From NCBI GenBank assembly GCA_030648205.1, contig JAUSIH010000111.1, positions 1-32,994 on the forward strand: a stretch of DNA of 32,994 bases, in the 5' to 3' direction. This DNA is from Dehalococcoidia bacterium. GTDB taxonomy: Bacteria; Chloroflexota; Dehalococcoidia; JAUSIH01. The position numbers and the translations under genes were made by a program. Below the pieces are notes generated by a model. The model worked only from the letters and a program-made list of their open reading frames with translations, had not been told where the DNA came from and searched no databases. Shown here piece by piece: positions 22,568 to 32,994 of the stretch (its first letter is position 1; each line of letters opens with the position of its first letter).

Positions 22568-22780
22568 TCAGGTGTACACCGCCGCCACGACCGCGTCCTT
22601 CGGGTTGCTGTCGCTAAAGAACAGGACGGTGCATTGCCGTCCGGCGACCACCTCGCTGGCGGGGATGTTCCGCGCCACGGGCAGGCCGGTGAGCCAGACG
22701 GATAGGCTGCCCGCCATCTGGACTGTGGCCGTGTAGCTCGTCGCGTCAAACGCCTTGATGACTCCGCGCTTCATGTCCAT
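22568..22780 (-). CDS. Small phage OB-fold/baseplate-like protein
   Basis: A 70-aa protein of strand-rich pattern (GVIKAFDATSYTATVQMAGSLSVWLTGLPVARNIP, then CTVLFFSDSNPKDAVVAAVY). This fits a minimal OB-like domain of the kind found at the start of phage spike or baseplate proteins; the identification rests on pattern and position. The ATG at 22780 has TGAGG 7 bases upstream. It is the last gene of the phage-derived cluster, separated from the large tail protein by a family A repeat. Confidence 0.6.
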   Translation of the reverse strand: MDMKRGVIKAFDATSYTATVQMAGSLSVWLTGLPVARNIPASEVVAGRQCTVLFFSDSNPKDAVVAAVYT

Positions 22781-22787
22781 GAGTGGC

Positions 22788-22881
22788 CTCACCCCTGTAT
22801 TCCCCTCTCCTCAGGAGAGGGGAAGTGAAAGGAAGACGGGGGACACCCCCGTCATCCCCCGGCTGGAAACCCACGGTTTCC
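22788..22881 (+). repeat. Three-hairpin dispersed repeat (family A), copy 4, inside the phage cluster
   Basis: Starts CTCACCCC. The hairpins are 22802-22822 (CCCCTCTCC, TCA, GGAGAGGGG), 22835-22853 (GACGGGGG, ACA, CCCCCGTC) and 22865-22881 (GGAAACC, CAC, GGTTTCC). It fills the gap between the last two phage genes. Confidence 0.8.
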
Positions 22882-22901
22882 CGCGCCTTCCCGTGACGCC
22901 T

Positions 22902-24896
22902 CTATACTCCGCCCAGAGTGATGCGCTGCGCGTACCGCGCGCGGCGGCCCGACCGCCTGTAGTGCATCTCCAGCCCCAGCACGCGGCGCCGCGCCGCCAC
23001 AAGCCCCGCGCGCGCGTCCGTCACCTCCACCACGTCGTAGAGCTCTTGGCCGCAGTTGACGGGCACGAGGATGTCCCCGGACACCGCGTCTAACTCCTCC
23101 CGGCGCAGCTCCGCGGCGCAGCGCGCCTGCGCCTCCTCCACGGTGGTCAGGTTGCGGTCCTGCACCTGCCGCAGCCGCTCCGGCACGCGTTCCACCTCGT
23201 CCCACGCGAAGGACTCGCCCACGACCGTCTGGCCGTACACCTGCACGCGATTGGCGCGGCGGCGCCGGCTGGCGTAGAGGCCCTCCGCGATGGCGTGGTC
23301 CGTGCCGTAGGCGTAGTCCGCGGGGTCGCTGGGCTGGGTGTCCCTGACCAGGGCTGTGGCGCCCCGGAAGGAGAGCGTGTCCGGCGCCAGGGCCAGCAGT
23401 CGCCGGACGGCGGCGCTGCCCTTCTCGCCGGGGTGCAGCGTGAACGCCGGCGTGAGCGTGGTCAGCGCGCTGCTGCCGCCCGTCACCTGGAGGACCAGCC
23501 CGGCGCGGCCCAGCAGGTAGGCGAGGATGTCCTTGACGCTCGCCTCGCCGGAGGCCCAGGCGTACTGGTACCGCGCGACCCACGCATCCAGCAGGCCCCA
23601 GGCGTCGCGGGCGTGCAGCGTCAGGCGCGACGCGTCGCCCTCCGCGGCGTGCTCCCACCCCTCGATCCAGAAGCTCAGCCCGGGCGAAACCTCTCGCCCC
23701 GCCGACGTCTCGTAACCCGGGCCGACCCGCGCCTCCGCGCCCGCGTCGAGCGCAGCCAGAACGCCGGAGCCGGGGCTGCTGTAGCGGCCGTCGTCGTTGC
23801 GCAGCGTCACGCTCAGCGCGCCGCCCGCCGGCCCCTGCGTCATCCGCATCTCCAGCACGTCGTCGGTCAGGTCCAGGGGCTGGGACGAGGTCTGCGCCCG
23901 CCAGACGCCGCTCGGCGTCGAGAGCCACCCTTCCGCGGAAGGGCCGTCCAGCGCCAGGGCCGCGCCGTACGAGGATGCCAGATTAAACGGGCCCGGCTCC
24001 CGCCACAGGCCCTGCGTGAAGGCGCTGCCGGGGACGAGGTGCGAGAGATTCGGACGGCTGTAGGGCGCCTGGCCGCTGTACGCCTCCACGAAGCTCAGCC
24101 GCGGGGGAGACCCCCCGGCCAGAAACGGCGCGCGGAAGCTCACGCCGGCCCCCGCGCTCGCCTGGACGATGACCTTCGGCGATGACCACTCGCCCACCGG
24201 ATAGGCCGAGCCGTCGCCCAGGACCACCGACCGCAGCCTGGCGTTGCCCGGGCTGTCCACTCCCGCGACGATAAGGCGCCAGTCCCCGTCGTATGCGCAC
24301 GCCAGCCCCGTGATACTGGAGAAGGTCTCCAGCCAGAGGAAGGGCGTCTCCCAGCCCGCGGCCGTCCGCCGGACGCCCCAGACCCTCGCGGGGGATGTGG
24401 TTGCGTACAGCAGCAGGGCGCGGTCGGCGTCCTTGAAGGCGGCGGCCATCCACCGGACGGCGCTGTCGCCGTTCGCCACGTTTAGCGGGCTGCCGAACGT
24501 GGCGCCGTAGTCCGCGCTCTCCCGCACGTAGATGGAGTACTGGTTCTGGCCCACGGAGCACAGCGCCACCCTGCTGCCCGCGCTCGCCAGGGCAATGCCG
24601 GAGTCGCTGGAGATGTCCGCCACCAGGGTCCACGTCCCGAAGTCAGAGCCGGGGCCGGGCGCAGTCGTCCGCTGGCGGTACAGGCGGTAGTCAGAGGCGC
24701 CCACGCGCGCCCGCACCAGCGAGCCGTCCCCGGCAAGAATGGCTGCGTGGTGGAAGTCCGGCTCCGTCCCCGTGTACAGGCGCGACCAGGCCAGGCGCGG
24801 CACGCCCGCCCGGGCGTCCACGACCTCCACCCGTGCGTAGGGTACCGAGGACGCGGCCCTCTGCGCGGCCAGGAGTGTCGAGCTGAGCGGACGCAT
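22902..24896 (-). CDS. Phage tail/baseplate protein with N-terminal propeller-like region and C-terminal hub-like region
   Basis: A 664-aa structural protein. Residues about 30-330 are strand-rich and repetitive, with an Asp-box-type SADYGATF (the SxDxGxT[W/F] motif of sialidase-like beta-propellers). Residues about 340-664 contain ALSVTLRNDDGRYSS, a GWEHAAEG-LTLHARDAWGLLDAW segment and a final strand-rich module (QELYDVVEVTD), a pattern typical of phage tail hub or minor tail proteins. The ATG at 24896 abuts the upstream stop with no gap, so translation is coupled to the adaptor-like gene. The frame is intact over 2 kb. Receptor or glycan binding by the front half is inference. Confidence 0.7.
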   Translation of the reverse strand: MRPLSSTLLAAQRAASSVPYARVEVVDARAGVPRLAWSRLYTGTEPDFHHAAILAGDGSLVRARVGASDYRLYRQRTTAPGPGSDFGTWTLVADISSDSGIALASAGSRVALCSVGQNQYSIYVRESADYGATFGSPLNVANGDSAVRWMAAAFKDADRALLLYATTSPARVWGVRRTAAGWETPFLWLETFSSITGLACAYDGDWRLIVAGVDSPGNARLRSVVLGDGSAYPVGEWSSPKVIVQASAGAGVSFRAPFLAGGSPPRLSFVEAYSGQAPYSRPNLSHLVPGSAFTQGLWREPGPFNLASSYGAALALDGPSAEGWLSTPSGVWRAQTSSQPLDLTDDVLEMRMTQGPAGGALSVTLRNDDGRYSSPGSGVLAALDAGAEARVGPGYETSAGREVSPGLSFWIEGWEHAAEGDASRLTLHARDAWGLLDAWVARYQYAWASGEASVKDILAYLLGRAGLVLQVTGGSSALTTLTPAFTLHPGEKGSAAVRRLLALAPDTLSFRGATALVRDTQPSDPADYAYGTDHAIAEGLYASRRRRANRVQVYGQTVVGESFAWDEVERVPERLRQVQDRNLTTVEEAQARCAAELRREELDAVSGDILVPVNCGQELYDVVEVTDARAGLVAARRRVLGLEMHYRRSGRRARYAQRITLGGV

Positions 24897-25538
24897 CTAA
24901 GGCCCCCAGTCGGTGGACTGGCCCTTCCACGGAAGGGGCGTGGCGGGAGCGTACAGGTGACGGACTCGCAGGGCGTTCTTGCGGCTGTGCTGCGCCAGGC
25001 CGCGCAAGAAGGCCGCCATCCGGTCCTGCCCCCAGGCCAGGTAGTTCTGCCAGGTAGTGTCGCCGCCCACGTTGATCCTATTCGTCGCGAAGCTGGCCCA
25101 TGCCAGGGCGGCGTAGGCGGCGGCCCCCAGCGCCGCCAGTTCCTCCAGCCTGGATGGCAGAGTGGAGGAGCCGGCGTCCAGGGTGTGCAGCTTGCCGTAA
25201 TAGACCGTCACCTGCCCTCCGGCGGCGGGCACGCCGTCCACCAGAAGCGTCAGCGTCGCCTCCCACTGGCGGAACGGCACGTAGCTTGCCGGATACAGTC
25301 CCGCGGGGTACTCGACCGCCTCGATGGCCACCAGCCCGGCCAGCGCCGCAACCGAGATGTCGCGCCCGCCGCCGGACGTGGCGAGTGTGGCCTTGGCTTG
25401 CAGCGGCGCGGCGACGCCCACGTCGCGCACCGCGTGGTCAATGTGCCTGTCCAGCTCCGCGTCCGTCCACCGGTAGCTGGAGCTGTCCGTGTCCCGCAGG
25501 TCCTGGCGGACCCGCGTCCGCATTTCGCTCAGGTTCAT
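24897..25538 (-). CDS. Phage head-tail adaptor-like protein
   Basis: A 213-aa protein starting MNLSEMRTRVRQDLRDTD, with a RWTDAELDRHIDHAVRDV helix. That opening is typical of phage connector or adaptor (gp6-like) proteins, which begin with a helical DNA-packaging gasket region. The middle is strand-rich (VTVYYGKLHTLDAG) and the C-terminal half is helical (LEELAALGAAAYAALAWASFA). The ATG at 25538 has TGAGGT close upstream. It is 7 bases downstream of the 79-aa gene, and its stop touches the start of the tail gene. Confidence 0.65.
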   Translation of the reverse strand: MNLSEMRTRVRQDLRDTDSSSYRWTDAELDRHIDHAVRDVGVAAPLQAKATLATSGGGRDISVAALAGLVAIEAVEYPAGLYPASYVPFRQWEATLTLLVDGVPAAGGQVTVYYGKLHTLDAGSSTLPSRLEELAALGAAAYAALAWASFATNRINVGGDTTWQNYLAWGQDRMAAFLRGLAQHSRKNALRVRHLYAPATPLPWKGQSTDWGP

Positions 25539-25545
25539 GGCGACC

Positions 25546-25785
25546 TCACCCCTTGTGTTCCGTCTGCATGGGAGGCGCCAGGGCGATCTCCCCGGTGCGC
25601 AGGTCTACCATGGCGTCCGCCAGGGCCAGCCCGTGCGCCTCCTCCAGCGCCAGCAGCAGCCTGCGCAGCGCCACGTGCGCCAGCCGGGCGCGCAGGACTG
25701 TCTCCTCCGCGTCCAGGTGCGCTCGACGCAGGCCCGCCAGCTCTCCCGCCGTCAGGGCCGGCGCCACACCCGCCCGCATGCTCAC
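25546..25785 (-). CDS. Small helical phage-cluster protein
   Basis: A 79-aa Ala/Leu/Arg-rich protein with a long amphipathic helix (LAGLRRAHLDAEETVLRARLAHVALRR) that could be coiled-coil; the family is not recognised. The GTG start overlaps the stop of the upstream 77-aa gene by 4 bases (GTGA). It lies between two phage structural genes, so a virion or assembly role is likely. Confidence 0.6.
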   Translation of the reverse strand: MSMRAGVAPALTAGELAGLRRAHLDAEETVLRARLAHVALRRLLLALEEAHGLALADAMVDLRTGEIALAPPMQTEHKG

Positions 25786-26015
25786 GCCCCCAGCTCCTCG
25801 ACTTGCACCGCGCCGAACACGTCGTCGTACATGGTCGAAAGCGCGTCCCGCTGGGTCGTGGAGAGCAGCGCCGTCACGTCCTTCGACTCGCTGCGGACCA
25901 CCTCGGCGCCGGCCAGCACCCGATAGTTGGCCTGGACCGTCACCTGGCCCGCCGTGTCCTTGAAGACGTTGACGCCGCCCCGCTGGACGCTGTCCAGAAC
26001 GAGTTGCTTTGGCAT
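25782..26015 (-). CDS. Small phage-cluster structural protein
   Basis: A 77-aa strand-rich protein (QLVLDSVQRGGVNVFKDTAGQVTVQANYRVLAG), family not recognised. The start at 26015 is marked by a strong AGGAGGAGA 6 bases upstream; the longer open frame reads into a dispersed repeat. It is translationally coupled to the next gene. Confidence 0.65.
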   Translation of the reverse strand: MPKQLVLDSVQRGGVNVFKDTAGQVTVQANYRVLAGAEVVRSESKDVTALLSTTQRDALSTMYDDVFGAVQVEELGA

Positions 26016-26063
26016 GTTGTCTCTCCTCCTCGCTCGTGTGGTGTCCCCGAAGTCTGCCGCAAT

Positions 26064-26167
26064 GTCATTGCGAGGCCCGACGAAGGAGGGCCGTGGCAAT
26101 CTGGGGGCGGTCCATCCCTCTTCCAGATTGCTTCGTCGTCCTTCCGCGAAGGACTCCTCGCAATGAC
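26064..26167. repeat. Dispersed repeat with 11-bp perfect terminal inverted repeats (family D), inside the phage cluster
   Basis: A 104-base element bounded by GTCATTGCGAG (26064-26074) and CTCGCAATGAC (26157-26167), with inner GGCAATCTGG and CCAGATTGC arms also paired. It is MITE-like. It occupies the 183-base gap between two phage genes without disrupting either. Confidence 0.8.
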
Positions 26168-26198
26168 AATTTCGTACGCGTATTTCGGTTACAGGACA

Positions 26199-26831
26199 TT
26201 AGGTGAGGGCCAGCGTCCCCGTATAGACCACGCCTCCGCTCTTGACCTTGGCTACCAGCTTCCGCGCGCCGCCGACCTCGGCCAGGTACAGGATGCCCTC
26301 GCCATCGTTGCCGGGGTCCAGGTCAGCCGTGCGGAACTTGAAAAAGACGGCCTTCTCCGTGGGATTCAGCGCCACCTGCCAGCTCCCGGAGTCGATGTCG
26401 TCCCACGCGTCAATAGGCCCGGCGCAGCGCAGGGCGTCGGCCACCGCCACGGCGCCGCCGTCCGCCGAGCCGGAGTTGTAGAGGCGGGCCTGGCAGTCTA
26501 TCTTCCCGCCGCCGGGGATGAGTGCGATGTCCCTGCTGCCCGTCGTCCGCATCTCAATTGAGCCGCTGCCGCCCGCCCCCACGTCAACGTACACGTTCGC
26601 GTTCTCGCCCTGCACGCGCTCCGCGCGGACCTTGTCCGGCAGGCGCAGCGTGCCTGCGGCGCTTCGGTACAGGGCGGCGTCCCCGCCGAGCAGCAGGCCC
26701 TTCGCCGCGGACGTGGCGTCGGGCAGCTTCAGGGAATACCCGCCGTCGGGCGCTTGCACCTCCCGCACCCAGCCCTGGCCGTCTAGCCCCAGGACAGCCG
26801 TTTGGTCTTCACCCGCAAGCCGTAGTGGCAT
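26199..26831 (-). CDS. Phage fibre-like or virion-decoration protein
   Basis: A 210-aa protein. The N-terminal half is a repetitive strand pattern (GYSLKLPDATSAAKGLLLGGDAALYRS, LPDKVRAERVQGENANVYVDVG) as in fibre shafts. The C-terminal half (DDIDSGSWQVALNPTEKAVFFKF to ARKLVAKVKSGGVVYT) looks like a compact beta domain. The assignment is by pattern and position. The ATG at 26831 has a perfect AGGAGG 6 bases upstream; the upstream extension reads into a G-rich repeat. Confidence 0.55.
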   Translation of the reverse strand: MPLRLAGEDQTAVLGLDGQGWVREVQAPDGGYSLKLPDATSAAKGLLLGGDAALYRSAAGTLRLPDKVRAERVQGENANVYVDVGAGGSGSIEMRTTGSRDIALIPGGGKIDCQARLYNSGSADGGAVAVADALRCAGPIDAWDDIDSGSWQVALNPTEKAVFFKFRTADLDPGNDGEGILYLAEVGGARKLVAKVKSGGVVYTGTLALT

Positions 26832-26854
26832 ACGTACCTCCTTGTGACAGGGTT

Positions 26855-26926
26855 TAGGGATTGGGGGCTGGGGGTTGGCGATACGCCGCCCCCAAATCCC
26901 CAACCCCCAACCTCTAATCCCTTTAC
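26855..26926. repeat. G-rich/C-rich inverted repeat (family E), inside the phage cluster
   Basis: A G-run half (GGGATTGGGGGCTGGGGGTTGG, here given in two parts: 26857-26868 and 26869-26878) faces a C-run half (CCCCAACCCCCAACC, 26898-26912, then CTAATCCC). The arms can form a long imperfect hairpin, and the G-run half could form a quadruplex. Confidence 0.6.
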
Positions 26927-27303
26927 GACACCGCGCAGTCCGCGCTCAGGCTGAACGACGTCCCCTGGAACGCAGTCACCTTCAGGAACACGGCGCTCCC
27001 GCGCGCCTCCACGGCCAGGGCGTGGCGTCCGGCGGCAGTCAGCGTGCGGGACGCCCCGCCGAACCACTGGCCCAGGCGCGGGTTCCAGAACAGCGCCTGC
27101 ACGTCCAGGCTCACGATGCCGACGCCCGACAGCGTTATGTCGAAGCGGCACTGCTGGAAGCCCGCGCAGTCCACGGCCCCGGACGCGTCCGCGGGGTCCG
27201 CGGCGTCCACCGCCGTCACGTTCTGCCGGTGGACAGCCGGGGCCAGCGGCTCAAAGCAGGGGCCTTTGGGAATACCGTTGGCGTCAATACGCACGTTCGC
27301 CAT
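26923..27303 (-). CDS. Phage-cluster structural protein, unrecognised
   Basis: A 126-aa strand-rich protein (VRIDANGIPKGPCFEPLAPAVHRQNVTAVDAADPAD, CRFDITLSGVGIVSLDVQALFWNPRLGQWFGG) with a possible beta-sandwich fold. It has no strong family match that I can name. The ATG at 27303 has GAGAGGT 5 bases upstream. As the first gene after the capsid gene it could be a head decoration or completion protein, which is inference from order. Confidence 0.6.
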   Translation of the reverse strand: MANVRIDANGIPKGPCFEPLAPAVHRQNVTAVDAADPADASGAVDCAGFQQCRFDITLSGVGIVSLDVQALFWNPRLGQWFGGASRTLTAAGRHALAVEARGSAVFLKVTAFQGTSFSLSADCAVS

Positions 27304-27326
27304 AATCACCTCTCGTGGCTCGTGGT

Positions 27327-27396
27327 TCGACTGGCTCACCACGAGCGTAAGGTCGCACCCGCTCACCCTGAGCCCGTCGAAGGGCGAGCGGGTCAG
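27327..27396. repeat. Dispersed palindromic repeat (family F) after the capsid fragment
   Basis: Starts TTCGACTGGCTCACCACGAGC and ends with CTCACCCTGAGCCCGTCGAA followed by GGGCGAGCG, so TTCGAC and GTCGAA are inverted. It resembles interspersed repeats seen in many high-GC genomes. It lies between the capsid fragment stop (27409) and the 126-aa gene. Confidence 0.6.
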
Positions 27397-27408
27397 ACAG
27401 TGCGGCTC

Positions 27409-27972
27409 CTACGGCCGCACGCCGGTGAGCCGCGCCAGCTTCACGCCGCTGAACACCGCCACCGCCACGTACCACTTGACCCGCGTGCGGCTGGCGTCCT
27501 TCGTCTCCAGGCTGCCGATGCGCTCCGCCTGCAGCCCGCCCGGCGCGGTCAGGCCGGCCACGGCCCCCTCGCCGAGCTGCAGCGCGTGAATCGTGGAGCA
27601 GTCCGCGCTGGAGCCGACGGTCTTCGCGTCGCTTATCCAGTCGTTGACGGCCACGGGGATGCCGTCGTAGTACTGCACCATCTGGCCGAACTGGTTGCGG
27701 TCCGTCTCCAGCACCCCGCTGCCGGTGGCGCGGGCCAGCCCGGAGAGCGTCCGGCGGGAGCGGCGACTCATCAGCAGCAGGTGCGGCTTGCCGCCCTTGA
27801 CCCGGTCAATCAGCTCGTCGAGCTTGTCCAGGGTGAGCGTCGCGCCGTTCGTGCCCATGCTGACCGACTGGCCCGACGGGCACAGCTTATCCACGCCGTC
27901 GAAGCTCTTGGCGTCGGCGGACGCGTCGCCGTTCACGAACGTGTCCACTAACCGGACAACTTGACCATACAA
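27409..27972 (-). pseudogene. Major capsid protein, 5'-truncated
   Basis: The C-terminal part of a phage major capsid protein, 187 codons open. Capsid-like segments are DTFVNGDASADAKSFDGVDKL, LDKLDELIDRVKGGKPHLLLMSRRSRRTLSGLARATGSG, VQYYDGIPVAVNDWISDAKTVG, LGEGAVAGLTAPGGLQAERIGSLETKDASRTRVKWYVAVAVFSGVKLARLTG. Family members recalled from general knowledge carry about 120-130 further N-terminal residues, which are absent here. Homology-like sequence stops near 27955, and only 16 bases beyond the open frame lies the terminator of the XRE gene. No Shine-Dalgarno or credible start is present, so the product is probably not made. Confidence 0.72.
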
Positions 27973-27980
27973 ACCGGTTG

Positions 27981-28015
27981 GAAAAAGAAGGGGTGGGCTA
28001 CACAGCCCACCCCTT
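27981..28015 (-). terminator. Intrinsic terminator of the XRE regulator gene
   Basis: A perfect 12-bp stem AAGGGGTGGGCT / AGCCCACCCCTT (27988-27999 and 28004-28015), loop ACAC. On the minus strand it is followed by TCTTTTTC. It lies 50 bases after the XRE stop and abuts the truncated capsid gene. Confidence 0.85.
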
Positions 28016-28065
28016 CCCCTTTCATTGCCAGTCGTTCACCCTTGGCGCGGCTCCCGATCTCTACA

Positions 28066-28494
28066 TCAGGTCGGTGATGCAGGCGGGTTGTTGTCTCTCC
28101 GATTTCCCTTCCAGCGAATGTACTCGAGGAAGGGAAGTAATTCACGCTTCTCAAACTCAGTCAACCTTGCGAACGGGTCAGATGGCCGAGGTTCCTGTCT
28201 CAGAGTGTCGACAAAGTCCATCGGTATGCGGTCCACGCACTTCCACATTTCTTTCTCAGGCAATCGGTAGGCACGTGCCCAAGCGCTGAAATGACCGTCC
28301 TTCGGCTTCCTCAAGCCCTTTTCCACCAAATAAACGAAATTTGGCTTAACCCCTACGCGCATGGCAATGGACTCCACAGACAAACCACTTGTCTTGCGGC
28401 TGTCTTTGAGAAGAGTGCCCAAACCGGCGTAGGTGCGACGCCCAGGCGACTTTCCAGACCTACGACTTTTAGAGGGTGATTCAGGCGGCAGCAT
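28066..28494 (-). CDS. XRE-family helix-turn-helix transcriptional regulator
   Basis: A 142-aa protein. A basic Ser/Arg/Lys-rich N-terminus is followed by a Cro/C1-type helix-turn-helix at about residues 25-80 (LGTLLKDSRKTSGLSVESIAMRVGVKPNFVYLVEKGLRKP). A C-terminal acidic/aromatic helical part ends in FEKRELLPFLEYIRWK. The ATG at 28494 has AAGGGG about 10 bases upstream; the open frame continues farther but through the promoter region. It is divergent from the pyrE-like gene and probably controls both through the palindrome at 28557-28572. The gene is AT-richer than the host-type genes around it. Confidence 0.88.
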   Translation of the reverse strand: MLPPESPSKSRRSGKSPGRRTYAGLGTLLKDSRKTSGLSVESIAMRVGVKPNFVYLVEKGLRKPKDGHFSAWARAYRLPEKEMWKCVDRIPMDFVDTLRQEPRPSDPFARLTEFEKRELLPFLEYIRWKGNRRDNNPPASPT

Positions 28495-28548
28495 GCATGG
28501 CACGCCCCTTTTTATACCAGAGGGACAATAACTGCAATGCGGCAGATA

Positions 28549-28576
28549 TTGACAATTATACCATTTGGTATATAAT
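28549..28576 (+). promoter_or_regulatory. Consensus promoter of the pyrE-like gene with operator palindrome in the spacer
   Basis: TTGACA (28549-28554), 16-base spacer, TATAAT (28571-28576): both boxes are perfect. The spacer holds the palindrome TATACC-ATTT-GGTATA (28557-28572). On the minus strand the same palindrome overlaps a TATAAT (28560-28555) that could be the -10 of the XRE gene. A further half site TATACC is at 28513-28518, within the XRE leader. Confidence 0.75.
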
Positions 28577-28719
28577 ACAGCCACAGTGAGTAGCAACAGA
28601 TCGCTTCAAGTACCTCACCTGCCTCTTGGCCTCTCCATGTCCTCAAAAAAGCCCACTTACCTTGAACCGCGATGTGCATCCCCTTCGTGCTTTGCAGCCA
28701 TCAACGAGGAGGTTGTATA

Positions 28720-29361
28720 ATGGTTGCCTGTCAAGGGAGGCGAGAAGTGGGAAAAGAACAACGTAGAGAGAGAATCAAAACGCTGATCGAGAAACTCGCC
28801 ATGCGGTATGGCGATTTTGTGCTTTCCTCCGGGCAAAAGAGCAAATATTACTTTGACGGTAAGATGGCTACAACCGACCCGGAAGCAGCCACTCTCATAG
28901 CCGAAGAAATCTTCGAAGCGCTCCGGAATGTCGACGTCAAAGCTGTTGGCGGATTGACGATTGGCGCTGCGCTGATGGCTCCTGCGATCTCCTTGATAGG
29001 TCGCCGTGAAGGGAGACTAATCCCAGCCTTCGTGGTCAGAGATCAGCGCAAAGAACACGGAACCAAGAAGTTCATAGAAGGGTACTTGCCCAAGGGGCCG
29101 GAAGCGAAGGTCGCCATCATAGATGACGTAATTACTGGTGGGGGCTCGGTCCTTAAGGCAATCGATAAGGTTGAGGAAGAGGGGTGTGAAGTCGTCAAGG
29201 TTATTGTCCTTTTGGACCGGCATCAAGGCGGCAGCGAGGAAGTGAGACGCCGGGGCTACGATTTTGTCGCGATCCTCCACGCGGATTCAATGGGGAGGGT
29301 GACCGTTGACGAACCTTCAACAAATTCGCGGCGAACTGCTCAAGGGGTTCTATCTTCGTAA
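28720..29361 (+). CDS. pyrE: Orotate phosphoribosyltransferase-like protein
   Basis: A 213-aa type I phosphoribosyltransferase closest to PyrE, which converts orotate and PRPP to OMP in pyrimidine synthesis. LAMRYGDFVLSSGQKSKYYFDGK is the PyrE N-terminal signature. VVRDQRKEHGTKKFIEG is the flexible catalytic loop (Lys and His-Gly-Thr), and VAIIDDVITGGGSVLKAID is the PRPP-binding motif. The ATG has GAGGAGGT 7 bases upstream. No other pyrimidine gene is nearby. Orphan PyrE-like enzymes can have salvage or regulatory roles, so the substrate is not certain. It is controlled by a consensus promoter with an operator-like palindrome shared with the XRE gene. Its last 56 bases overlap the next ORF. 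Confidence 0.88.
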   Translation: MVACQGRREVGKEQRRERIKTLIEKLAMRYGDFVLSSGQKSKYYFDGKMATTDPEAATLIAEEIFEALRNVDVKAVGGLTIGAALMAPAISLIGRREGRLIPAFVVRDQRKEHGTKKFIEGYLPKGPEAKVAIIDDVITGGGSVLKAIDKVEEEGCEVVKVIVLLDRHQGGSEEVRRRGYDFVAILHADSMGRVTVDEPSTNSRRTAQGVLSS

Positions 29362-29647
29362 TCTGGACGCTTTGGCGCGTCTCTGCAATAAAACGGCAAC
29401 GGATTCCGCAAGACCGTTGCCGTTTTTTGTTATGCAATGCATATTCCTTAGGGTTGCCGCCGATTGGCGTGAGCGTCCGATGACTCCAGAAGAAGCAAGC
29501 CAGTGGAAACAATGGCTGGGGAAACCTCTTGAGGACGTTATCGCAGGACTTGAGAACGGTGCCCCTGAGAATGAGATGTATGACATCTTGAATAAGCTTG
29601 TTTCCGCCTACTCGGTTGCTGAGACCTTTTCTTCAAGATTCAGGTAG
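29306..29647 (+). CDS. Small ORF of unknown function overlapping pyrE and containing a terminator
   Basis: A 113-aa frame, TTG start at 29306 with GGGAGGGTG about 6 bases upstream, inside the 3' end of the pyrE-like gene. The protein looks natural and helical (LLKGFYLRNLDALARLCNKT, then PLPFFVMQCIFLRVAADWRERPMTPEEASQWKQWLG, then DILNKLVSAYSV), so I think it is real, but the family is not recognised. A strong intrinsic terminator lies within it (29391-29429). An alternative is a shorter protein from the ATG at 29432, after the terminator. Function unknown. Confidence 0.5.
   Translation: MTNLQQIRGELLKGFYLRNLDALARLCNKTATDSARPLPFFVMQCIFLRVAADWRERPMTPEEASQWKQWLGKPLEDVIAGLENGAPENEMYDILNKLVSAYSVAETFSSRFR
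29391..29429 (+). terminator. Intrinsic terminator after pyrE, within the small ORF
   Basis: A perfect 12-bp stem AAACGGCAACGG / CCGTTGCCGTTT (29391-29402 and 29414-29425) with an 11-base loop and a run of six T ending at 29428. It lies 30 bases after the pyrE stop. Confidence 0.88.
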
Positions 29648-30344
29648 ATGTCAACGACTGTCTAGCCCCTTCCAAATGTGGAAAACGGGGAACCTCTCGG
29701 CCCCATGTGTAGTCGCTTGCCTGTCTCTCACTGCCAAGTACTATGAACGCCGAGAAGCAGCGTCCTCTTGCATCTCGGTTGGTCGTTCGCTGTTCGCGAA
29801 CGTGAACTTCACCAATGTCAATCCACATGCAAGAGAACTGGCGGAATGGGGGGAGTACGCTATTCAGCGCGGGGTCGGCCCGGTCCTCCGCCCTGGGGAG
29901 CGGCGTCTGCGCAGGTAGCGCACGAGGAACAGTCCGGAGTCGATGATGACGACGCTCACGTAGGTGATGGAGCGGTCCAGCAGGATAACGGAAAGCGCCG
30001 CCATCCCTGCGCCGCCGACTGTCGCGGACCAATCCGCGCCGCTCGGAACGCGCCGTGTCTCTCCTGTCTCCGGCTCTGAGCCGATGTCCAGGGCAGCGAA
30101 AGGCGAAGCGGCGAGGCTCGTGGCGCGTCGTCTACCGCCACGGGCATGAAAACAGGGGCGCGCGCCCCCCGCGCGAGCATGGTGCTCCGGCGCACGATCC
30201 CGTCGGCCAGCACAAGCAGCACCCGCGCCCGCCACAAGGCACGCGCGGCTCTGTTCGGGGCCTGCCCGTGCAGAGGGCGGCCTGGGCCTATCAGGGGCCT
30301 CCCTTGCGATTCCAGGCCACGCGCATCACCATTCGCCCGCATCA
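29648..30344. other. Gene-free region, no supported feature
   Basis: About 700 bases. The left third is AT-richer, like the pyrE cassette; from about 29860 the composition becomes host-like and GC-rich. Minus-strand frames around 29864-30387 contain short plausible stretches (for example AALSVILLDRSITYVSVVIIDSGLFLVRYLRRR, a possible membrane segment, and ARVLLVLADGIVRRSTMLARGA) in two different frames. A decayed, frameshifted membrane protein gene is possible. I cannot support an intact gene. Confidence 0.4.
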
Positions 30345-30373
30345 TTGACACGCGGCCCGTCGCGGCATATAAA
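30345..30373 (+). promoter_or_regulatory. Promoter of the second restriction gene
   Basis: Perfect TTGACA (30345-30350), 17-base spacer, TATAAA (30368-30373). The start of transcription would be near 30380, giving a leader of about 125 bases. Confidence 0.65.
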
Positions 30374-30505
30374 GAGGGCGTTACCACGCAACCGGGACTC
30401 GGCCCTCTCCGAAAGGGAGTATCCCAGGAGCAAAGCTACAAAACGCTCAAAAAGGTGCACTCCAGAGAGCCTACGTTTGTTCGCATCGGACTAGGGAGAG
30501 ATAGC

Positions 30506-32994
30506 GTGGCTAACGAATTCTTTGAGCACCCCATCCTCAACTCCCCCTATGAATACCCGGCACGGCACTGGGAGCTTGATGCCCAGGGCCAGCCAACCCA
30601 GCGAATCATTGAGAGTCGCCGCAAGGCGGAGTTCATTACGCCGATTCCTAAACCCAGGAAGCGTAGGGCGGTCGCGGCTCAGCCACAAATGGTATTCGAC
30701 GAAGGCAAAGGTCTTTCCACCAAGGCTCAGCAATACGATCCCACTTCAAACATCAACGAGGTGCGCCAAAACGTCGACGCGTGGCGAGCGTTGCCCAACC
30801 CAAGCCAATGGCAGGTCAGCACGGAGACGGCACGCCTGCTCCAGCACTGGCGGCACCACAAGTTCGGCGGCGTCCGCCCGTTCTTCTGTCAGGTGGAAGC
30901 AGTCGAAACTGCTATCTGGCTGACCGAGGTTGCTCCCCAATCCAAGAGTGGCAAACGATTGCTCGACTACCTGGCGAGCGCCAACAAGGACGCCAACCCT
31001 GAACTCATGCGCTTTGCGCTGAAACTCGCAACCGGCGCGGGCAAGACCACCGTCATGGCCATGCTCATCGCGTGGCAGACAATCAACGCGGTGCGTCGAC
31101 CCGGCAGTAAGCACTTCACGCGCGGCTTCCTCGTCGTCACCCCAGGCATCACGATCAAAGACCGTCTTCGCGTCCTCCAGCCAAATGACCCGGACAGCTA
31201 CTACGCCAGCCGCGAGCTGGTACCAGACGATATGCTGGACGACGTGAACCGCGCCAAGATCGTCATCACCAACTTCCACGCATTCAAGCCCCGCGAGCGC
31301 GTCGATCTCTCCGCCGGAGGACGTGCGCTGTTGAAAGGCCGCACCGGCGACGAGCTGAACACCATCGAAACCGAGGGCCAGATGATCCAGCGCGTCATGC
31401 CCGACCTCATGGGGATGAAAAACATTCTCGTGTTGAACGACGAGGCCAATCACTGCTACCGCGAAAAGCCCAACACGGACGAAGACGACGATCTAAAAGG
31501 CGACGAGAGGAAGGAGGCGGCAAAGAATAGCGAAGCCGCCCGCCTTTGGATTTCCGGCCTCGAAGCCGTCAATCGCAAGCTCGGCCTCGCACGCGTTATC
31601 GACCTCTCGGCCACCCCGTTCTTTCTCAGCGGCTCGGGCTATGTCGAGGGCACCTTGTTCCCGTGGACCATGAACGACTTCTCACTCATGGACGCCATCG
31701 AATGCGGCATCGTAAAGCTGCCACGCGTTCCTGTCGCCGAGAACATTCCTGGCAACGAGATGCCGATGTATCGGAATCTCTGGGAGAACATCCGCAAGGA
31801 CATGCCCAAGAAAGGCCGAGGCCAGGGCGAGGAACTCGATCCCCTCAAACTTCCCACCCGACTGCAAACTGCTCTCCAGGCTCTCTACGGCCACTACGAG
31901 AAGACCTTCAAGCTGTGGGAAGAAAAGGGCATTCGTGTGCCGCCCTGTTTCATCATCGTCTGCCAGAACACCGCCATCTCGAAACTCGTTTACGACTATG
32001 TCTCAGGATTCTTCCAGAAGGATCAAAACGGTCTGCCGAAGCTGGTGAATGGCCGCCTTGACCTCTTCCGTAACTTTGATGAGCACGGCAACCCTTTCGC
32101 CCGTCCGAACACCCTGCTTATCGACAGCGAGCAACTCGAATCCGGCGAAGCATTGGACGACAACTTCCGTGGTATGGCCGCAGATGAGATTGAACGCTTC
32201 CGTCGCGAGATCGTGGAACGCGGCGGCAAGCTCGCTAATGAACTTCAACAGGGCAAGGAACTCGACGACGTGACGCTTCTCCGCGAGGTGATGAATACTG
32301 TCGGCAAGTACGGCCAGTTGGGCGGAGCGATTCGCTGCGTCGTCTCCGTTTCCATGCTCACGGAAGGCTGGGATGCGAATACCGTCACTCACGTCCTCGG
32401 CATTCGCGCCTTTGGCACCCAGCTCCTGTGCGAGCAGGTCATTGGGCGCGCGCTCCGCCGCCAGTCCTACGAACTGAACGAAGACGGTCCGGACAAAGGT
32501 CTCTTCAATGTCGAATACGCCGATGTTTTCGGCATTCCCTTCGACTTCACGGCCAAGCCGGTCATCGCCCCGCCGCAACCGCCGCGGGAGACGGTTCAGG
32601 TCAAAGCCATCCGCCCGGAGCGCGACGCGCTCGAAATCCATTTCCCCCGCGTCGAAGGCTATCGCGTCGAACTGCCCGAAGAACGCCTCACTGCCAGCTT
32701 CAACAACGATTCCATTCTCGAACTCAGCCCCGACCTCGTCGGCCCGTCCATCACGCGAAACTCCGGCATCATCGGCGAAGGCGTGGATATGAACTTGGAA
32801 CATCTGGGAGACATGCGGCCCTCCACGCTGCTCTTCCACGTCACCCAGCGCCTGCTCTACACGAAATGGCGCGACCCCGGCGAGGAGCCGAAGCTCCATC
32901 TCTTCGGCCAGCTCAAGCGCATCACCAAGCAGTGGCTCGACACCTGTCTCGTCTGCAAGGGCGGCACCTATCCCGCCCAGCTCAGGTATCAGGA
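30506..32994 (+). CDS. Type III-like restriction helicase (BPTD_3080-like), 3' end beyond the window
   Basis: A partial frame of 829 codons, open to the window edge. It begins VANEFFEHPILNSPYEYPARHWELD, then has a superfamily 2 helicase core: Walker A TGAGKTT (about 176-182), motif II NDEANH (Asp312-Glu313-Ala314), motif III LSATPFF (about 367) and motif V/VI SMLTEGWDANTVTHV and QVIGRALRRQ (about 645-653). The architecture matches a type III restriction subunit family known as BPTD_3080-like; the nuclease part would lie past the edge. The GTG start has GGGAGAG 5 bases upstream. It differs strongly from the Res at 8077 and is a separate system. Its methyltransferase partner is not seen in this window. 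Confidence 0.88.
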   Translation, partial: MANEFFEHPILNSPYEYPARHWELDAQGQPTQRIIESRRKAEFITPIPKPRKRRAVAAQPQMVFDEGKGLSTKAQQYDPTSNINEVRQNVDAWRALPNPSQWQVSTETARLLQHWRHHKFGGVRPFFCQVEAVETAIWLTEVAPQSKSGKRLLDYLASANKDANPELMRFALKLATGAGKTTVMAMLIAWQTINAVRRPGSKHFTRGFLVVTPGITIKDRLRVLQPNDPDSYYASRELVPDDMLDDVNRAKIVITNFHAFKPRERVDLSAGGRALLKGRTGDELNTIETEGQMIQRVMPDLMGMKNILVLNDEANHCYREKPNTDEDDDLKGDERKEAAKNSEAARLWISGLEAVNRKLGLARVIDLSATPFFLSGSGYVEGTLFPWTMNDFSLMDAIECGIVKLPRVPVAENIPGNEMPMYRNLWENIRKDMPKKGRGQGEELDPLKLPTRLQTALQALYGHYEKTFKLWEEKGIRVPPCFIIVCQNTAISKLVYDYVSGFFQKDQNGLPKLVNGRLDLFRNFDEHGNPFARPNTLLIDSEQLESGEALDDNFRGMAADEIERFRREIVERGGKLANELQQGKELDDVTLLREVMNTVGKYGQLGGAIRCVVSVSMLTEGWDANTVTHVLGIRAFGTQLLCEQVIGRALRRQSYELNEDGPDKGLFNVEYADVFGIPFDFTAKPVIAPPQPPRETVQVKAIRPERDALEIHFPRVEGYRVELPEERLTASFNNDSILELSPDLVGPSITRNSGIIGEGVDMNLEHLGDMRPSTLLFHVTQRLLYTKWRDPGEEPKLHLFGQLKRITKQWLDTCLVCKGGTYPAQLRYQ

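Follow-up and report, generated by a model that had tools for sequence, protein, structure and literature searches.

As far as the available text of one review (PMC11841831) describes them, gene transfer agents (GTAs) consist of packaging and structural genes only, are distributed over several loci and are inherited vertically, their defining trait is that random host DNA is packaged, and finding new ones by sequence is an open problem. RcGTA of Rhodobacter capsulatus is presented in the accessible parts of two accounts (PMC11409702; PMC11841831) as a siphovirus-like system with 24 genes at five loci, while FpGTA of Faecalibacterium prausnitzii, according to the part of its report at our disposal (PMC12946183), has a 10.5 kb operon with a small terminase, terminase, portal, scaffold and capsid genes and, at a distance of about 125 kb, another operon of 5.5 kb that carries baseplate and lysis genes. 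FpGTA particles, shown by microscopy and proteomics, are 40 nm in size, have no visible tails and contain 8.4-8.9 kb of DNA; the system is near-ubiquitous in its genus and, in that paper, confined to one genus (PMC12946183, same part). Here we analyze a window of 32,994 nucleotides (contig JAUSIH010000111.1 of GenBank assembly GCA_030648205.1, a 2.69 Mb draft genome in 120 contigs) from a Chloroflexota bacterium, in which positions 22568-27972 contain a capsid-to-hub gene block. We consider it probable that this block is one of the modules of a particle domesticated from a phage, most likely a GTA, inherited within the class (Chloroflexota, probably Dehalococcoidia). To our knowledge GTAs from outside the Alphaproteobacteria are very few. 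A literature search by title, with preprints outside its range and most papers judged by title, revealed none in Chloroflexota.

The block is transcribed from the minus strand in the order: 3' part of a major capsid gene (177 codons), decoration-like gene, three small genes, head-tail adaptor, 664-aa tail protein (hub) and 70-aa protein (Table 1). The first-pass annotation of this DNA described the same phage-type block, with seven intact frames and coupled junctions downstream of the capsid fragment, and on both points our analysis agrees with it, as all seven frames are open and their junctions are tight or overlapping. It also reported dispersed repeats in four gaps of the block, and DNA repeated in the genome was found in three: two are listed in Table 1 and the third (22787-22889) contains DNA found at 2 places in the genome (in all these counts some places may be halves of one copy), while the inverted repeat in the fourth gap (26856-26922) had no match elsewhere in the genome in the repeat search. 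The 70-aa protein, putatively OB- or spike-like by its position after the hub (the OB label is that of the first-pass annotation), exhibits no match in Pfam or PHROG. The Rfam search of the window returned no match, and no tRNA was found in it.

Terminase and portal, claimed earlier to be missing, are absent only locally. With the terminase-portal pair from a relative with a compact cluster (G041) as a query, both were identified on contig C38 of the same genome, with a small helix-turn-helix (HTH) gene between them and, about 2.6 kb beyond the portal, a scaffold-like gene, and thus the proposed look for missing head genes elsewhere in the genome was successful. This second module comprises a small open reading frame before the terminase, the terminase, the HTH protein, the portal and the scaffold. 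Most relatives likewise encode the conserved HTH protein at this place, between the terminase and the portal (e.g. L046:3678-3959); it shows a weak match to late transcriptional activators, which makes it a candidate regulator. The C38 terminase spans two frames near residue 406 (about 12790-12810 of L081, i.e. G000 C38:12001-32000), adjoining a short tandem duplication, while in relatives it is a single frame; the break may be real or an assembly error. A search with an amidase query found no Amidase_2 gene in this genome, while such a gene follows the block in G018 and G015.

Analysis of 294 genomes of the class, each at least 90% complete, identified the portal in 138 and the capsid in 132, with both in 117 (Fisher P about 1e-42), almost always as a single copy per genome. 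Among 60 relatives in a smaller survey, for the most part with each family represented by one genome, 30 have the tail protein, 35 the terminase, 32 the portal and 26 the capsid. The compact arrangement (G041, G031, G021 and others) occupies about 10 kb in the order small gene, terminase, HTH, portal, scaffold, capsid, adaptor, hub, 70-aa protein; in other relatives (e.g. G033, G018) the capsid-to-hub module stands alone amid host-like genes. Hub and portal share one contig in 19 genomes, within about 10 kb of each other in 12 and 53-255 kb apart in 7; a distance of about 182 kb was found on one contig of G050, a genome outside these 19, and in the closed genome G059 the genes (capsid together with terminase, then portal, scaffold, hub and adaptor) lie at no fewer than 5 separate places over about 200 kb. 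In the loci read, the modules are flanked by host-like genes and include no replication or integration genes of their own, the sole recombinases being those of elements inside the capsid gene. Likewise, no integrase, regulator or replication genes were recognized beside the modules in the annotated loci, the flanks of which were not exhaustively scanned against Pfam. A capsid-forming satellite was rejected as a candidate, owing to the lack of integrase and replication genes in the loci read.

In a sample of 300 genomes of the phylum, the portal profile matched 56, 25 of which belong to this class or are the present genome; outside the class the match is full-length in a few other families, and about 20 matches are weak and partial. 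In some of these other Chloroflexota families (L155-L159; e.g. G563, G418) capsid, portal, adaptor and terminase genes are close together in a changed order, and the hub profile (A2) matched none of the L155-L159 loci except in G444. Two genomes of the class (G104, G181) contain two full-length divergent capsid homologues each, against the usual single copy.

The genes are kept by purifying selection in pairs from three genera, with ratios of nonsynonymous to synonymous substitution rates (dN/dS; NG86, closest three pairs per gene) between 0.04 and 0.37 (g63: capsid 0.066-0.081, portal 0.115-0.171, adaptor 0.098-0.168, hub 0.195-0.231; g56: portal 0.044-0.064, hub 0.140-0.374; g77: portal 0.073-0.096, adaptor 0.216-0.317). 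Complete prophages in relatives, combined with neutral substitution, had been named beforehand as the outcome that would speak against domestication; in the relatives, instead, the modules are either compactly clustered or dispersed, and most pairs give dN/dS values well below 1. In maximum-likelihood trees of 29 genomes (rpoB frames chosen by homology), the concatenated set agrees with rpoB in 0.56 of 3000 quartets (200 label shuffles: mean 0.335, highest 0.448), and the trees of the two modules agree with each other in 0.64 of quartets. In family f14 the genera g14 and g63 have common flanking genes on both sides of the cluster, which indicates the same chromosomal site; g63 carries the cluster intact, while in g14 (G013, G093, G048) only remnants are found there.

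Comparison with 50,697 phage records revealed no match at E 1e-3 for the hub and the adaptor, 11 matches for the portal (23-24% identity), one matching phage (in two records) for the terminase (31% identity) and 251 matching records for the capsid, with about 40% identity or less among the matches listed. The Pseudomonas phages of the YuA/Ab18-like group and other phages with a phrog_212 capsid share the major capsid family (about 40% identity) with the present set; however, these phages are complete, with tape-measure, lysis and replication genes, and their other genes have no close match to it. In IMG/VR 331 relatives of the portal were found, and the best 80 of the 331 are all on contigs of at most 27.2 kb.

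These data bear on the possibility that the blocks are decaying prophages of different ages, left by a widespread temperate phage family of the class. Every gene is indeed of phage type, fragments of the set are listed as viral in IMG/VR, G013, G048 and G043 contain only remnants, and the Mantel tests against rpoB are non-significant (capsid -0.24, hub 0.04, adaptor 0.07, portal 0.18, terminase 0.27). Nonetheless we regard this explanation as unlikely, given the single copy in nearly half of the class, the site conserved within a family, the purifying selection, the co-occurrence of modules that lie far apart, and the absence of long viral contigs from the best 80 of 331 IMG/VR relatives and of close relatives from the phage records. 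The Mantel results, which leave room for some transfer or very uneven rates, weigh against inheritance of a GTA in the class, too, and so do several other observations. About half of the class is without these genes, and the portal and capsid lists disagree in 36 genomes (21 with the portal only, 15 with the capsid only), partly due to draft gaps. Six of the seven cases with hub and portal far apart come from family f33 (the seventh from f76), and thus are not independent. Wider, less reliable pairs give higher dN/dS values, from 0.21 to 1.21 in f17 (hub 1.2, terminase 0.52) and from 0.08 to 0.81 in g4 (70-aa protein 0.81). Finally, the set of the present genome is itself broken: with the capsid gene split (see below) and the terminase frame interrupted, the system is probably inactive in this genome, and particles are probably not made there now.

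In the window the capsid gene is present only from about codon 118 onward, while full homologues in relatives have about 295 aa. The first-pass annotation described it as truncated, and gave a very young deletion of an older prophage as one reading of the block; the gene is not simply truncated, and such a deletion is not supported as the reason for its shortness. Codons 1-120 were found on contig C98 (9539-9898, minus strand), beside a gene for a large serine recombinase of 527 aa, in which the Pfam domains Resolvase, Recombinase and zinc-ribbon are all present. The two junctions have a common 6-bp core, their inverted arms agree at 16 of 17 positions, the rejoined flanks are in frame, and the combined junction palindrome matches at 20 of 25 positions (the best of about 65,000 centers in the window reaches 19). 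Judging by these junctions, an integrative element that carries the large serine recombinase splits the capsid gene, and excision of the element would rejoin the capsid frame. Given the recombinase, the shared core and the inverted arms, an intein or intron was dropped as an explanation of the split. The DNA to the right of 27946 is not host flank but belongs to this inserted mobile element. Its restriction endonuclease gene extends past the end of the window's contig and is continued at the beginning of C98 after a gap of about 345 bp (estimated from a plasmid homologue of the gene), so that the element amounts to about 15 kb; it encodes an XRE regulator, a pyrE-like protein, the restriction enzyme, a type III methyltransferase, a primase-like protein and the large serine recombinase. 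The host-side DNA immediately upstream of where the capsid gene starts contains a CAP12/Pycsar-type TIR gene (L102:10047-10907; PDC-S35 in PADLOC).

That the capsid-to-tail block and the element are an artefact of assembly or binning, as might be suspected in a draft of 120 contigs, appears very improbable: the two junctions, although they come from different contigs, have the same core and inverted arms that match, one restriction gene spans both contig ends, and in other records the capsid gene is interrupted by five additional, independent recombinase elements, one of which has its two junctions on a single contig. The element resembles the XisF fdxN element, which likewise has a large serine recombinase by the junction, splits a host gene and has flanks that join in frame, and its recombinase scores against the XisF family (NF041201), below the cut-off. 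The sigK skin element and the comK prophages are other serine-recombinase elements that interrupt a host gene. In contrast to fdxN-type elements, the target here is the capsid gene of the putative GTA, and controlled excision is only a candidate.

Large serine recombinases at a break of the capsid gene were also found in G259, G251 (twice) and G255 of the class sample, and two IMG/VR contigs exhibit the same kind of break (L016, with the same recombinase as G259, and L175). The six different recombinases are 19-48% identical, and the breaks fall near codon 47 (four), 89 (one) and 119 (present genome). A profile built from two recombinases matched only these six loci among 274 loci, in a sample biased to GTA loci, and PF07508 gave 61 matches in 26 chosen genomes, 5 of them in the capsid gene, all in four genomes known beforehand. 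No comparable split was seen among the portals listed in the class survey. Two candidates were excluded from this count, namely G248 (adjacent frames) and G293, in which IS3-like transposase genes, judged by eye, occupy a capsid break near codon 89 (L266:18-1225). In G142, G209, G281, G117 and G092, also excluded, the capsid is encoded by one extended frame (about 317-370 aa), in which an in-frame insertion lies near codon 143. We tentatively put forward, as a possible but rather doubtful extension, that an ancient class-wide GTA exists in Chloroflexota and that unrelated serine-recombinase elements repeatedly target its capsid gene and block lytic particles in a manner restorable by excision, so that GTA production may be under the control of these elements and contested by them.

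The AlphaFold model of the 664-aa hub (predicted local distance difference test, pLDDT: 74.6; predicted template modeling score, pTM: 0.61) comprises a beta-propeller and a hub domain. The best solved matches reported by Foldseek against the PDB are Mu-type gp44 (3cdd, 1wru), VgrG and injection-system hubs, while propellers of neuraminidases and PLL-type lectins rank lower; the protein is therefore predicted from the model to be a VgrG/Mu gp44-like hub with a lectin-like propeller. In some relatives the propeller half contains inserted domains (e.g. DUF2341 in G041), as might be expected for a receptor-binding part. In the most likely scheme, the terminase would fill portal-bearing heads with host DNA, the adaptor would connect the portal with a very short tail, formed by the hub and the 70-aa protein, the propeller, being lectin-like, would bind the recipient cell, and particles would exit by lysis, possibly with the amidase encoded after the block in some relatives. 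Gene content, co-occurrence, dispersal, selection and junctions were observed directly, whereas DNA packaging, delivery, lysis and any control by excision are inferred.

The hub fold, closest to the VgrG/Mu gp44-type hubs of injection devices, could also belong to a domesticated particle that transfers no DNA, i.e. a PBSX-like killing particle or an injection-system-like device for protein delivery. We find this quite improbable, since both terminase and portal have been retained and are found together with the capsid gene, pairs from g63, g56 and g77 give dN/dS values of 0.04-0.17 for the portal, and neither sheath nor tube gene was recognized in the clusters read. A tail-like device without packaging genes, as envisaged in the first-pass annotation, is likewise at odds with the terminase and portal present elsewhere in the genome and with their co-occurrence with the capsid gene in relatives. 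Its proposal of a domesticated particle is supported by the block recurring class-wide, in single copy and under selection, often away from packaging genes.

Among described systems the GTA proposed here appears most like FpGTA, the short-tailed, two-operon case from Faecalibacterium: as far as the available part of PMC12946183 goes, both have a compact set of small-terminase-like, terminase, portal, scaffold and capsid genes, a remote second gene group and a short or not visible tail, which in the present set is a prediction. The present set, in contrast, is class-wide and more dispersed, and it is likened to FpGTA by description, being known from its genes. With RcGTA, as portrayed in the accessible text, it shares the multi-locus organization, the restriction to structural and packaging genes and, possibly, the vertical inheritance over a large clade, but differs by the SU10-type adaptor and by the lack of any recognized tail-tube or tape-measure gene, again in a comparison by description. 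The GTA features given in the consulted part of the review (PMC11841831) are fully or partly present: structural and packaging genes of phage type (terminase, portal, capsid, adaptor, hub) are found in loci that, as far as read, include no replication or integration genes of the set, and they lie at several chromosomal places. For long vertical inheritance, the quartet agreement above all label shuffles and the common site within family f14 stand against the non-significant Mantel tests.

Table 1. Features of the capsid-to-hub block, the inserted element and the packaging genes (window coordinates unless contig C38 is given).
Feature	Position	Strand	Basis or remark
70-aa small protein	22568..22780	-	open reading frame; homologues after hub in most relatives
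Tail hub, 664 aa; predicted Mu gp44/VgrG-like hub at C-terminus, beta-propeller at N-terminus	22902..24896	-	AlphaFold model and Foldseek
SU10-type head-tail adaptor, 213 aa	24897..25538	-	PF24175, E 1.2e-9; phrog_399
Small protein, 79 aa	25546..25785	-	homologues in several relatives
Small protein, 77 aa	25782..26015	-	homologues in G002 and G058
Dispersed genome repeat, about 170 bp	~26018-26220		40 further places in genome
210-aa protein	26199..26831	-	same-place gene in relatives homologous (weak profile match); no Pfam match
Decoration-like protein, 126 aa	26923..27303	-	43-73% identity in relatives; directly 3' of capsid gene; named by position, putative function
Second dispersed genome repeat	27317..27391		12 further places in genome
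Major capsid protein, codons ~118-294 only	27409..27948	-	phrog_212, E 1e-35
6-bp core, right-hand attachment site in capsid gene; common to C98:9540-9545	27941..27946	-	junction comparison
Window part of inserted element; continues on C98:1-9540 past ~0.35 kb gap	27947..32994		restriction gene across contig ends
17-nt arm; inverted copy at other junction on C98	27954..27970	-	junction comparison
XRE-type regulator, within element	28066..28596	-	PF13560
Orotate phosphoribosyltransferase (pyrE-like), within element	28672..29361	+	TIGR00336 above cut-off
BPTD_3080-family restriction endonuclease, 3' end beyond contig	30521..32992	+	NF046055, profile 1-796 here, 903-969 at C98 start
Portal	C38 22591-23883		query from G041
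Terminase	C38 24635-26019		query from G041

Collections of the IMG/VR type contain many fragments of this set labelled as viral, which calls for caution in their use. A candidate that nearly half of a large class carries in single copy, and for which closed genomes are at hand, makes the prevalence and persistence of GTAs directly testable. Altogether, the repeated capture of the capsid gene by six different recombinases points to an unreported conflict, or a switch, between mobile elements and GTAs.

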